Source of the DNA: Pseudomonadota bacterium
GTDB lineage: Bacteria; Pseudomonadota; Alphaproteobacteria; Caulobacterales; Caulobacteraceae
Length of the DNA stretch: 64,000 nucleotides
NCBI GenBank assembly: GCA_021808285.1
Contig: JAKBBV010000002.1
Location: forward strand, 1-64,000
Direction: 5' to 3'
The notes below the pieces were generated by a model. It was not told the origin of the DNA. It searched no databases and saw nothing but the letters and a program-made list of their open reading frames with translations. Position numbers and translations under genes: made by a program. Below, piece after piece: positions 3,121-6,662 of this stretch (within the stretch, counting starts at the first letter, position 1; every line of letters starts with the position of its first letter).

Positions 3121-3828
3121 CTAGAGCCCAAGCAGGGCGTCTGAGGCGGTCTCAATTCGGGTTTCAAGCTCACGCATGAAGCTTGCGCGAGGCAGCCCTG
3201 CAGGGATCGGCTCCAGAAACTCCACGACGATGAGGCCGGGGCGGCGACGGAAGCCGTGGGCCGGCCAGTGGACGCCCGAATTGGTCGCCACGGGAATGCA
3301 GGGAAGGCCGAGGTCGCGATAGAGTGCGGCGACGCCCGGCTGGTACTTGCCGCGCTGGCCCGGAGGCATGCGATGGCCTTCGGGATAGATGACCAGTTGT
3401 CGTCCCTCCGCGATCCGGGTCGACGCCTCGGCGACAAGCTTGCGCAGAGCGGTGGAATGGCCGTCTCGATCAACCGGGATCATTCCGGATTTGCGGGCGT
3501 ACCAGCCAAAGAAAGGGATCGCGAACAGCTCCTTCTTGGTCACGAAACAGGGGTTGGGAAGGATCGCCAGGGAGCCCAGCGGATCGAACATGCACTGGTG
3601 TTTCGAGGCCACCAGGGCAGGCCCTGTGGGCAGGAGCGGGCGTCCGCGCACCTCAACTCTGATGTCACAGATCACCCGCAAGAGAACGGTGAATCCCGCC
3701 GACCAGACCGACATGACCCGCATCGTCCAGCTGCGCGGCGCCAGGAGCACGGGCAGCATGACCAGCGACGCCAGGGCTGACCAGATGTAAAACAAGGCCA
3801 CGAAGATCAGGGATCGGACGAAGATCAT
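3121..3828 (-). CDS. plsC: 1-acyl-sn-glycerol-3-phosphate acyltransferase (PlsC family)
   Basis: This enzyme acylates lysophosphatidic acid to phosphatidic acid at the inner membrane. The 235-residue protein has an N-terminal hydrophobic region (about residues 5-45), the acyltransferase HX4D motif (KHQCMFD), a GMIPVDRDG block and the YPEGHR motif. The start at 3828 has a strong AAGGAGA seven nt upstream and overlaps the stop of ydcF (ATGA), making it the last gene of the ftsE-ftsX-ydcF-plsC chain. The exact acyl acceptor is not proven, since lyso-ornithine-lipid acyltransferases share these motifs. Confidence 0.87.
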   Translation of the reverse strand: MIFVRSLIFVALFYIWSALASLVMLPVLLAPRSWTMRVMSVWSAGFTVLLRVICDIRVEVRGRPLLPTGPALVASKHQCMFDPLGSLAILPNPCFVTKKELFAIPFFGWYARKSGMIPVDRDGHSTALRKLVAEASTRIAEGRQLVIYPEGHRMPPGQRGKYQPGVAALYRDLGLPCIPVATNSGVHWPAHGFRRRPGLIVVEFLEPIPAGLPRASFMRELETRIETASDALLGL

Positions 3829-4448
3829 CGGGCGTCTCCTTGACCGGCGCGCGGGGACTCGAGACGACCGCCCAGGTCCAGCACGCCATCGCGGCCGAGC
3901 GTTATCAGGTACTTCGTGTATTCGGCCGCCATACGCTCGGCCCCTCGGTTCGTCTCCTCCCAATGCCGGGCGTCGAGGTCCGGCGTCGGCACAGGATAGG
4001 CCTCGATATGCACCCCGCCCAAGGCCCCCTTGAGGTCCAGGACGGCCCTGGGCGTATGATAGTCGGCGGTCACCAGAATGATGCGACGGTAGCCCATGGC
4101 GTGCACCCAGTCCGCTGTTTCGCGGGCGTTGCCCAGGGTGTTCGCCGCCTCGAAGCCGAGATCAACGCAACAGTCGAACAAGGGTTTGGCTGCGCCCGTA
4201 AGAACCCAGAGTTCGTGGCGGGTAACCCTGCGATCGACCCCGGAAACCAGGAGCCGTTTGCCCTCACCCGCCTCCAACAGGTCTGTGGCCGCCTTGAGAC
4301 GCACGGCGGAGCCGCCTGTGAGCGCCACAATTCCGTCCGCGGGGACGGGCGTGGCGGCGGGGGTCGACCGAACTATGCGGTCCGCGAAGGCCAGCAGTCC
4401 GGAAAACCAGGCGAGGCTGGCGACAAGGAGGACCGCTAGTCCTTTCAC
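3825..4448 (-). CDS. YdcF/SanA family DUF218 membrane protein
   Basis: This 207-residue product has one N-terminal transmembrane segment (about residues 3-20) and a DUF218 domain. Visible marks are ADGIVALTGG at the start of the domain, the KRLLVSGV strand, a NTLGNARETADWV block and the VTADYHTPRA motif. Family members such as SanA/ElyC act in the envelope, with proposed roles in peptidoglycan precursor or enterobacterial-antigen metabolism, but the biochemistry is unsettled. The GTG at 4448 overlaps the ftsX stop (GTGA), and the gene's own stop overlaps the plsC start. Coupling to FtsEX suggests a cell-wall or division role. Confidence 0.85.
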   Translation of the reverse strand: MKGLAVLLVASLAWFSGLLAFADRIVRSTPAATPVPADGIVALTGGSAVRLKAATDLLEAGEGKRLLVSGVDRRVTRHELWVLTGAAKPLFDCCVDLGFEAANTLGNARETADWVHAMGYRRIILVTADYHTPRAVLDLKGALGGVHIEAYPVPTPDLDARHWEETNRGAERMAAEYTKYLITLGRDGVLDLGGRLESPRAGQGDAR

Positions 4449-5323
4449 GGCGTGGCCCTGGCCAGAACCGGCAACACGGTCCAAGCCGCGACCGTCAGGG
4501 CGAGACACGTCGCCAGAGCGATCCAAATAAGGGCGGCGGCGCTCGCGAGCTGAGGTCCGACGTTGTTCGCGAACAGCAGGCCCGGGAGCACGGGCAGAAG
4601 CTGACCGGCGGCCTCGGCCCCCGCAAACGCCCCCGTCAACAGACCGAGGCCGATTCCGGCCGACTCGCCGGTCGTCAGATGGAACATGAGGCGCAGGTCG
4701 CTCATCCCCCATTTTGACAGCTGAACGACGCGTTCGAGGTTATCGGCCAGCCGTACGCGCACGACCTGAGAGATCGCCAGGCTAAAGGCCGACAGGAGCC
4801 CCCCCAGGGCGAGACCGCCGATCGCCAGTTTCAGGGCGAGACCTCGCCGAAGCGGGGAGGTCAGCCACCCATGGTCGTCGATCGCGACCATCACGCCAGG
4901 GCGGCGAAGCCGCTTGAGCACCTCGCTTCGGAGCGCCCCGGGCCGCAATCTGACCGCGAGGAGACGGCCCTCGACCCGCGTCCTGGGTGTCGCGAGCAGC
5001 CCCTCCGCCAGCTCATTGTCCTGCGGGTCGGCCGGCTCCGCGCTCGCATCGATGACGGAGGGATCGGCCTTCAGCCATTCCAGGGCGCGCCCGGCCACCG
5101 CTTCGGGGCTTTCGAGCGTCTCGTCGGTCGAGGCGACGGCGAGGGTGATATCGCCCTGAAGCCGCACCCTGAGATGCGCCTGGGACTGCAGGCTCGCCAG
5201 GAGGATGGCCAGGATCATGACGCCGGCGAAGGAGGCGGTCAGGGTCAGGACAAAGGCTCCCACCCTGCGGCGCCTGTCGCCCGGGGATTCCGGCCAGGGC
5301 GATGACCGCGTCAGGCCGATCAC
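4445..5323 (-). CDS. ftsX: Cell division protein FtsX (permease-like)
   Basis: FtsX is the membrane half of the FtsEX complex that controls septal peptidoglycan hydrolases. The 292-residue protein has the expected four-helix topology: helix 1 at about 22-44, an extracytoplasmic domain at about 45-160, then helices at about 165-187, 215-240 and 262-285. Conserved features include QVVRVRLADNLERVVQLSKWGMS between helices 2 and 3 and an LFANNVGPQL loop before the last helix. It starts with GTG at 5323, overlapping the ftsE stop (GTGA). FtsX itself looks intact, although its FtsE partner does not. Confidence 0.9.
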   Translation of the reverse strand: MIGLTRSSPWPESPGDRRRRVGAFVLTLTASFAGVMILAILLASLQSQAHLRVRLQGDITLAVASTDETLESPEAVAGRALEWLKADPSVIDASAEPADPQDNELAEGLLATPRTRVEGRLLAVRLRPGALRSEVLKRLRRPGVMVAIDDHGWLTSPLRRGLALKLAIGGLALGGLLSAFSLAISQVVRVRLADNLERVVQLSKWGMSDLRLMFHLTTGESAGIGLGLLTGAFAGAEAAGQLLPVLPGLLFANNVGPQLASAAALIWIALATCLALTVAAWTVLPVLARATP

Positions 5324-6006
5324 GTCGCGATCTCGGGTTGAGGCGGAACACGGATGGCGGATCCGATGAAACCGTCGGGAAGGCTCGCCTCGTCAACGGT
5401 CGCCAGAACCGCCATACCGGCGGCGTTCGCCTCCTGGAGCTTGCCGAGAAAGGTCTTCCGCAAGGCCGGCGCCAGATCGCGGCCGGGCTCCTCCGCCAGG
5501 ACGAGTTGGGGGGCATTCACCAGGGCTCGGGCGAGCGCCACGCGCCAGCGCCCGTCCAGGTCGAGAGCATGGACCAGCGCGTTGCGCCGACTGTCGAGGC
5601 CAAGCCAGCTGAGGATCTCCCTCGACTGACGCTCCGCGTTGCTCCAGACGCCCGCGGCGGCCCAGGCGGGCAGGGCGGTCGCTGCGAGGACCGGAAGGTG
5701 GATAAACGGGTCGGGTTGCAGGCGGACAAGACCGATCCGCCGGCGAAGCCTTCGCCTCATTGAGCGTCCAGACTGACGCGCATCCTGGCCGAATACCTCT
5801 AGACGTCCCTCGGGTGGCGGCGAGAGGTCCAGGATCGAGTCCAGCGTCGGGTCCGAGCGTTGGCCGGTCGGCCCCACCAGCCACGCCCAAGCCCCGTCCT
5901 CCAAGGTGAAGCTCAGGGACGAGAAGGGCGGTTCGCCAGGGCGGGCCGGGCGGTGGTAACGCACCACCCGCGACAAGGCGTCATCAGAGGCGCCAATCCC
6001 GCTCAC
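5320..6006 (-). CDS. ftsE: FtsE-like ABC protein with eroded ATPase motifs
   Basis: Position before ftsX, length (228 residues) and the ARALVNAPQLVLAEEP segment identify this as FtsE, the cytoplasmic ATPase of the FtsEX division complex. The nucleotide-binding motifs are degenerate. The Walker A position reads GPTGQRSD (about 45-52) with no GK[S/T]. The LSGG signature is replaced by LDLD (about 148-151). The Walker B aspartate is Glu172, though the following catalytic Glu173 remains. The H-loop histidine is valine (ATVDE, about 202-206). Only a Q-loop glutamine (RLQPD) and Glu173 survive. The frame is unbroken for 687 nt and coupled to ftsX, so this is not a simple pseudogene. The likely start is GTG at 6006; a TTG at 6009 is possible. 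Confidence 0.8.
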   Translation of the reverse strand: MSGIGASDDALSRVVRYHRPARPGEPPFSSLSFTLEDGAWAWLVGPTGQRSDPTLDSILDLSPPPEGRLEVFGQDARQSGRSMRRRLRRRIGLVRLQPDPFIHLPVLAATALPAWAAAGVWSNAERQSREILSWLGLDSRRNALVHALDLDGRWRVALARALVNAPQLVLAEEPGRDLAPALRKTFLGKLQEANAAGMAVLATVDEASLPDGFIGSAIRVPPQPEIAT

Positions 6007-6086
6007 CAACCGACAGGTTTCCTGGACATCACTGGCAAAATCGGCGACCGGTTGGCGACATCTATGGGCGAGGGTGAGTCGTCATC

Positions 6087-6662
6087 ATGATACTGACCTG
6101 TCCGAAGTGCGCCACCCGCTTCCTCATTGAGGAGGGACAAATCGGCGAGGGCGGCAGAACCGTGCGGTGCAGCGCCTGTGGGGAGCAATGGCGGGCGACC
6201 CCGAATGGGTCGGCGCCGGCCCCTCTTGACCGCGTGGCGGAGGATCCCGAAACCCAGGCCCCCGAAACCCAGGCCCCCGGGACCCTGTCGGCTGTCTTCG
6301 AGAGTGAGGCCGAAGGGCCTGTTCCCGAGGCGATCCCGGCGGACGTTCATGCGACCGACGCCGAGCTCGGCCCCATCGTTGCTCCCATCACCATGCAGTC
6401 GCGTGGCGGCGCGGTGCGCGAGCCCGGTCTCAACCTCGCCCTCATCGTCGTCGCCGTCATCGCGGTGATGGTGGCGGTTTATGCGTTCCGCGCTGAGATC
6501 ATGCGCGTCGCGCCGGCGATGCGCGGGGCCTACTCCGCCATTGGCCTCGCCCCGGCGAGCCCTTCGCCACAGCCAATCGCGCCTGCGACAGAGACCCCAG
6601 CTCAAGGTGCGCCGGCTCAGGGTGCGCCAGTTCAGTCGGACGGCAACCGGCCGAATGGCTGA
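6087..6662 (+). CDS. MJ0042-type zinc-ribbon, single-pass membrane protein
   Basis: The 191-residue protein starts with a zinc ribbon: MILTCPKCATRF at 1-12 and a second cysteine pair CSACGEQW at about 31-38. A low-complexity linker rich in Pro, Glu and Ala follows (two EPETQAP-like units), then one transmembrane helix at about 118-137 and a Pro/Ala/Gln-rich tail. This domain order is typical of alphaproteobacterial zinc-ribbon proteins encoded divergently from ftsE. The 80-nt gap to ftsE must hold both promoters. Its function is unknown; a cytoplasmic metal-binding or nucleic-acid-binding head tethered to the membrane is inferred. The last 8 nt overlap hpt. Confidence 0.8.
   Translation: MILTCPKCATRFLIEEGQIGEGGRTVRCSACGEQWRATPNGSAPAPLDRVAEDPETQAPETQAPGTLSAVFESEAEGPVPEAIPADVHATDAELGPIVAPITMQSRGGAVREPGLNLALIVVAVIAVMVAVYAFRAEIMRVAPAMRGAYSAIGLAPASPSPQPIAPATETPAQGAPAQGAPVQSDGNRPNG

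Follow-up and report, generated by a model that had tools for sequence, protein, structure and literature searches.

Signalling from FtsEX to the cell-wall hydrolases is regarded as hinging on the FtsE ATPase, and the locus described here raises the question of what an ftsE gene without ATPase motifs may still do beside ftsX. ABC ATPases need a composite site, including the signature and the H-loop, for the ATP-sandwich dimer and for hydrolysis. In heterodimeric ABC transporters a degenerate NBD is kept as a structural partner, the NBD with which it pairs being intact. In the known FtsEX, by contrast, FtsE forms a homodimer, and motif loss therefore removes both sites together; the degenerate NBDs of the heterodimers and the FtsE described here both contain decayed motifs, whereas only the former pair with an intact NBD. 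The window, by which the whole analysed stretch of 64,000 nt is meant, covers positions 1-64,000 of contig JAKBBV010000002.1 (GCA_021808285.1, Caulobacteraceae), and its genome is referred to as G000.

Identity and motifs of the ftsE gene in the window

The gene immediately precedes ftsX and overlaps it translationally, in the neighbourhood that is conserved for ftsE in alphaproteobacteria, and an overlap of the GTGA kind was also found in most of the loci of 32 relatives. The neighbours common to the window and its relatives were the divergent zinc-ribbon gene, ftsX, the DUF218/YdcF-like gene and an acyltransferase (Table 1). The product matched Pfam ABC_tran at 1.4e-10, and its best NCBIfam match was FtsE (TIGR02673; E 6.2e-23, 81.6 bits), below the curated cut-off of 264.85 bits. 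The AlphaFold2 model (33 homologues) had a mean pLDDT of 89.6 and a pTM of 0.86, and its top Foldseek matches were the solved FtsE structures 8ymc, 8hd0 and 6z63. In the VIA comparison FtsE, LolD, MacB and MlaF were tied at Z 22-24, so that the fold is that of an NBD and is not specific to FtsE, and the identity as FtsE is taken from synteny. The ORF is an ftsE ortholog by position and fold; the best profile match and the neighbours agree with the earlier note, which had named the gene from its position, length and residual similarity.

Table 1. Features of the ftsE-ftsX locus in the window (residues of FtsE numbered from TTG 6009)
Feature	Positions	Strand	Description or basis
Eroded ftsE	5320..6009	(-)	ORF, 229 aa from TTG 6009; alternative start GTG 6006 (228 aa)
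GTGA stop/start overlap coupling ftsE to ftsX	5320..5323	(-)	ORF coordinates
Former Walker A GPTGQRSDP, without Lys	5848..5874	(-)	Residues 46-54
Former Q-loop RLQ (canonical FQx), Gln to Leu97	5716..5724	(-)	Alignment
Former ABC signature LDLDGRW (canonical LSGGEQQ)	5545..5565	(-)	Residues 149-155
Walker B remnant VLAEEP	5485..5502	(-)	ADEP to AEEP, Asp to Glu173; catalytic Glu kept
Former D-loop GRDLAP, Asp to Ala180	5467..5484	(-)	Alignment
Former H-loop TVDE (canonical ATHD), His position Asp206	5389..5400	(-)	Ungapped alignment
Co-eroded ftsX, 292 aa	4445..5323	(-)	Synteny; AlphaFold2 model; Foldseek
FtsX coupling helix in model, residues 196-204, sequence degenerate	4712..4738	(-)	AlphaFold2 model and alignment
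DUF218/YdcF-like gene, conserved downstream neighbour, used as anchor	3825..4712	(-)	Pfam PF02698
Zinc-ribbon gene, divergent, conserved upstream neighbour	6087..6662	(+)	Pfam PF13717

The frame was found to contain no internal stop, and the product was found to lack the Walker A Lys, the LSGGQ signature and the H-loop His. Alignment with relatives placed Ser52 at the position of the Walker A Lys and Arg51 at that of the preceding Gly. The earlier note had read a Walker A without lysine, LDLD for LSGG and Glu for the Walker B Asp, and all three were seen, its Glu172 being Glu173 when counted from the TTG; the uninterrupted frame of 228 codons and the GTGA coupling that it described were also seen. 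Its replacement of the H-loop His by Val was not borne out, as the His aligns with Asp206 and Val205 aligns with the Thr preceding it.

The genome of the window is a draft of 2.91 Mb in 105 contigs with a completeness of 97.75%. A search of it with TIGR02673 gave 37 matches, none of them above the cut-off. The best match (C61:52645, 192.8 bits) was rejected as a second ftsE, being LolD by family and adjoining a LolC/E-like frame. The second, intact ftsE for which the earlier note had proposed to look was thus not found in this genome by the TIGR02673 search.

Distribution and order of motif loss in the Caulobacteraceae

The genus of the window contained 16 genomes of uncultured Caulobacteraceae, all of them drafts. 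The ftsE locus was found in 15 of these, eroded in 13 and canonical in two (G006 and G009), and no ftsE locus was found in G004. Every one of the 13 eroded members has lost its H-loop His and its LSGGQ signature, and the D-loop of five was additionally affected by deletions. The Walker A Lys was lost, among the loci of the genus, only in the window and G010, and the Walker B Asp was changed in these two and in G001. The P-loop core GxGK was kept in 11 of the 13 eroded members and in all 21 eroded FtsE found outside the genus. This conserved core, the Walker B Glu retained in the window and the presence of canonical NBDs such as LolD in its genome would fit an unconventional use of the nucleotide, by binding of ATP without hydrolysis or by pairing with a canonical ABC subunit such as LolD. 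However, the window and G010 are without the P-loop Lys and the window is without the Q-loop Gln, an eroded signature would spoil a shared site too, and the coupling segment of FtsX was lost in parallel, so that such use is considered very unlikely.

In the family survey TIGR02673 was searched against 390 Caulobacteraceae genomes, and the scores of the best matches were bimodal. A best match at the canonical level (about 1e-69 or better) was found in 331 genomes, as classed by reading of the table, and a best match at the level of LolD only (1e-64 or weaker, one genome being without a match) in 59. Thirteen of these 59 represented the loci of the genus; for the other 46 a second search used a mixed profile, and the loci that it returned were tested for synteny. 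These 46 genomes contained 21 eroded ftsE, one partial ftsE (G154), one canonical ftsE cut at a contig end (G196) and two canonical ftsE with a broken frame (G115 and G087), and the remaining 21 gave no syntenic ftsE locus. The latter were excluded from the count of eroded FtsE, which comprised 34 of the 390 genomes (13 in the genus of the window and 21 in the groups g7, g3a and g3b). Eroded FtsE is not confined to the genome of the window and recurs within the Caulobacteraceae; a limited literature search gave no previous description of an FtsE whose motifs are lost.

The 12 eroded ftsE of the genus g7, among them that of the single-contig genome G322, contained the signature LDHDQRQ or LNHDERQ and the H-loop ASRN. 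The five of g3a contained the signature LSRAERR, and the four of g3b contained LDAAGRQ or LDRARRR and the H-loop GRD. Given the 105 contigs and the 97.75% completeness of the genome of the window, one might suspect an artefact of assembly, binning or sequencing, or a paralog taken for ftsE while the real gene is absent from the draft. Either is considered extremely improbable, as the locus is syntenic in relatives with ftsX and the YdcF-like and zinc-ribbon genes, the erosion recurred in 13 independently assembled members of the genus as well as in other groups whose genomes are near-complete or consist of one contig (G322, G352, G017, G158 and G120), and the changes in FtsX and ldpF agree with the erosion of FtsE.

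The tree was built from RpoB and YdcF, and in it the tips of G006 (YdcF only) and G011 (a short RpoB fragment, branch 1.5) are unreliable. The 13 eroded genomes of the genus were placed together (support 71), with the canonical G009 as sister (85) followed by G034 (99). The groups g7, g3a and g3b had supports of 100, 100 and 96, respectively. The separation of g3a and g3b was weakly supported (26), but their motifs were different. Eroded FtsE had at least three origins in the Caulobacteraceae, and probably four. The alignment of FtsE across relatives that the earlier note had suggested showed a graded erosion along this tree. The signature and the H-loop were lost first and Walker A later, twice, once in the lineage of the window.

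A few further observations were made in the survey. The sister-genus member G034 (locus L044) was found to contain the signature MSSGEQQ with the H-loop kept, which is possibly an early step of erosion. Locus L195 of G115 (single contig) and loci L149/L200 of G087 (Brevundimonas abyssalis TAR-001) contained a canonical N-terminal half of ftsE with the frame in two pieces, owing to a sequencing error or a true frameshift. The 12 eroded genomes of g7 were all of 2.3-2.9 Mb whereas many canonical g7 genomes were of 3-6 Mb, so that erosion may be linked with genome reduction; in the genus of the window the eroded genomes were of 1.9-5.2 Mb.

Changes in FtsX, LdpF and the hydrolase regulators

The FtsX of the window was found to match none of the Pfam and NCBIfam models, including TIGR00439 and PF02687, at E <= 0.1. 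All four FtsX whose genomes have canonical FtsE matched TIGR00439, and none of six FtsX beside eroded FtsE did. In an HMM of canonical FtsX, built from 17 sequences, the window reached 12.6 bits and the other eroded loci at most 223, compared with 206-477 bits for the canonical loci (the lowest in a distant genus) and 345 and 371 bits for the canonical pair within the genus of the window; the loci of G013, G175 and G167 are cut by contig ends and are uninformative in this comparison. The segment FATRAGLAARRDVVEVLHLSGAxDxFIAxLFQxRF was degenerate in all eroded genomes in which it was covered. Among the conserved FtsX columns, the fraction still kept by the eroded proteins was 0.53 for the periplasmic domain but lower for the coupling loop (0.28) and for TM2 (0.23). 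An intact FtsX, as supposed in the earlier note, was rejected on the grounds of the missing family-profile match, the low HMM score and the degenerate coupling segment.

The AlphaFold2 model of this FtsX (pLDDT 86.6) was found to contain four TM helices, with a periplasmic domain after TM1 and a coupling helix between TM2 and TM3. Its top Foldseek matches were the FtsX structures 8i6o, 8ymc and 8tzk (TM-score 0.39-0.46), and the profile of alignment A5, in which canonical relatives are included, matched solved FtsX at 2e-12. According to the model and the alignments, the FtsX of the window is co-eroded, above all in the segment that couples to FtsE, with the predicted fold kept.

In Caulobacter crescentus LdpF is EnvC-like and its coiled coil binds the FtsX loop, as given in the available part of PMC5607218. 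The LdpF profile strongly matched G006 (2e-114), G009 (7e-118) and canonical genomes from other genera, and none of the 14 genomes of the genus without canonical FtsE contained a match at this level, the best having an E of about 1e-18 or weaker and lying on a DipM-type M23 region. Each of the 13 eroded genomes of the genus, that of the window among them, has ctpA immediately after rlmH, without any remnant of LdpF, and in both canonical genomes ldpF was present between them; G004 gave no match to rlmH. The deletion of ldpF is one event within the genus, and the 13 genomes are therefore not independent observations.

In g7 the LdpF of four eroded genomes was of 215-218 aa or similarly short, being a remnant around the FtsX-binding tip and the LytM domain with the long helices gone; the tip was placed on LdpF from the EnvC-FtsX structure, as described in the available text of PMC7668044, and from a reading of the alignment. 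The LdpF of canonical g7 genomes was longer than this and already shorter than other LdpF. A broken ldpF frame was observed in G345, a single-contig genome with canonical FtsE (G345:C1:505304-506070, locus L311). In g3a (G017, G120 and G158) and in G103 of g3b, LdpF was of full length, 350-356 aa where measured; G103 is the one fully checked member of g3b, and the LdpF of G175 is split over contigs. The loss of LdpF as a general precondition of FtsE erosion was rejected, since g3a and G103 keep the protein at full length.

The number of M23 domains was one in the genome of the window, none in G001, 0-4 in the 14 genomes of the genus without canonical FtsE, and four and five in the two canonical genomes. 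The sole M23 protein found in the genome of the window was DipM-like and contained two LysM domains (C64:6697-6969 (-), locus L241:1414-2856 (-)); the DipM of C. crescentus has its LysM domains in two tandems (PMC10336132, available part). In G001, a draft of 98% completeness, no M23/LytM domain was found at E <= 0.001, DipM included, against 1-5 in its relatives. Loss of the whole peptidoglycan pathway was rejected as the reason, because six matches to Mur ligase domains were present in the genome of the window and wall synthesis is thus kept. The deletion of ldpF and the DipM-like nature of the sole M23/LytM protein found lend direct support to the suggestion of the earlier note that division control has moved elsewhere.

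Selection on the remnant and the possible role of a non-catalytic FtsE

The frames of all 34 eroded ftsE were open. The median NG86 dN/dS of eroded ftsE was 0.18 in g7 (66 pairs), 0.19 in g3a (10 pairs) and 0.42 in g3b (6 pairs) and that of three canonical sets was 0.041, 0.185 and 0.286, all these values being biased upward by high GC. The dN of ftsE and ydcF was 0.174 and 0.096 in eroded g7 against 0.020 and 0.074 in canonical Phenylobacterium, so that the constraint on ftsE is relaxed and not gone. Between the window and G001 the differences in ftsE were 0.37, 0.32 and 0.58 at the first, second and third codon positions, respectively, the third positions having diverged too far for a formal dN/dS. 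About 4.7 stops were expected in this pair from the raw differences and none was seen (P about 0.009, a rough neutral estimate). The amino acid identity of the same pair was 47% in FtsE, 40% in FtsX and 83% in the YdcF segment. The open frames, the dN/dS below 1 in three eroded groups and the missing stops accord with the earlier claim that the gene is under selection as protein, and the best reading is that purifying selection on the remnant is weak.

The main rival to a retained role is terminal decay, in which ftsE became functionless after the loss of ldpF, drifts to loss and is kept by its translational coupling to a needed ftsX. Both genes evolve fast in the lineage of the window, G000, G001 and G010 progressively lose further motifs, a frameshift in ftsE could harm ftsX through the GTGA overlap, and deletion of ftsE is tolerated by C. 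crescentus (PMC5607218). Against this stand the 34 open frames, the three eroded groups in which dN/dS lies well under 1, the expected stops that were not seen in one pair and the confident NBD fold in the AlphaFold2 model. The erosion is, moreover, ancestral to 13 divergent genomes among which gene loss was unseen, with the exception of G004, where the locus was not found. Decay alone is considered unlikely, while the fast evolution of FtsE and FtsX between G000 and G001 fits late decay as well as a retained role.

The best explanation is that ftsE has probably turned into a pseudo-ATPase in a dismantled FtsEX-LdpF module, with FtsE kept as a folded, non-catalytic subunit of FtsX; the latter would most likely be its present role. 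An ancestor of 13 of the 15 genomes of the genus lost its H-loop His together with its LSGGQ signature, and with them the composite site for the ATP-sandwich dimer and hydrolysis. Judged from the motifs, this loss alone should stop hydrolysis, and in the window nucleotide contacts have been lost as well. The FtsE-coupling segment of FtsX decayed alongside the FtsE motifs and ldpF was deleted, and these three changes were found to coincide in the eroded genomes of the genus. The lineage of the window then lost Walker A, the Q-loop and Walker B too. With LdpF gone, DipM-type regulation may control septal hydrolysis and the mechanotransmission by FtsEX would no longer be needed, whereas FtsE may keep FtsX assembled and/or keep ATP-independent contacts with the Z-ring (FtsZ, FtsA).

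A tolerated loss of the ATPase fits what is given in the available parts of the published work. In C. crescentus ftsE can be deleted and ftsX cannot, and depletion of dipM is synthetic lethal with the loss of ftsE or ldpF (PMC5607218). LdpF recruits AmiC to FtsEX without activating it, and DipM activates AmiC (PMC10336132). ATP hydrolysis is not required in Escherichia coli for FtsEX to recruit EnvC or to act on FtsA (PMC7343993). The ATPase-dead FtsEX of E. coli (FtsE D162N) nevertheless blocks septal wall synthesis through FtsA (PMC7343993), and the eroded lineages must therefore have escaped that block. An FtsE unable to form the ATP-sandwich state may avoid it.

The locus resembles the known FtsEX-EnvC/LdpF system (TIGR02673, type VII ABC mechanotransmission) in the order and overlap of ftsE and ftsX, the neighbours, the NBD fold and a four-helix FtsX with a periplasmic domain, but differs from it in the lost catalytic motifs, the score below the cut-off, the degenerate coupling segment of FtsX and the deleted EnvC-like partner. 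The E. coli FtsE mutants of the ATP site (D162N and others) are likewise ATPase-deficient and still localise, contact FtsA and recruit EnvC, according to the part of PMC7343993 that was available; D162N, however, is a laboratory mutant, held by analogy to be ATP-locked, and blocks division, whereas the FtsE of the window is natural, without the sandwich motifs and tolerated. The C. crescentus ftsE deletion is similar in that a Caulobacteraceae cell lives without FtsE activity and ftsX is undeletable (PMC5607218, available part), but there the gene is removed and the cells chain, whereas here FtsE persists as a protein devoid of its motifs, and ldpF is the gene that is missing.

A wider reading, put forward tentatively as possible without being probable, is that FtsEX is ATP-independent in several Caulobacteraceae lineages, with FtsE as a scaffold and FtsX as a passive membrane and periplasmic anchor, and that the coupling segment, the FtsE motifs and LdpF (or its long coiled coil) would be lost as a correlated set. 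If this were true, the essential function of FtsX in the Caulobacteraceae would need no ATP, and the natural intermediates would reveal through which successive steps a mechanotransmitting ABC complex can be switched off. Several lineages without ATPase motifs keep ftsE, a natural experiment by which ATP-dependent and ATP-independent functions of FtsEX may be separable, and which bears on the question why ftsX is essential in Caulobacter and ftsE is not. A pathway thought to be ATP-dependent appears to have been taken apart, with FtsE and FtsX kept and the cell-wall factor gone, and the EnvC-type branch of cell separation can be given up.

In a survey of 242 alphaproteobacterial genomes with a completeness of at least 97%, a match to FtsE at the canonical level, read at about 1e-66, was present in 200 and absent in 42. 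These 42 often included several members of one family (f45, f72, f64, f67, f70, f79 and f50), where further eroded or lost ftsEX may be present.
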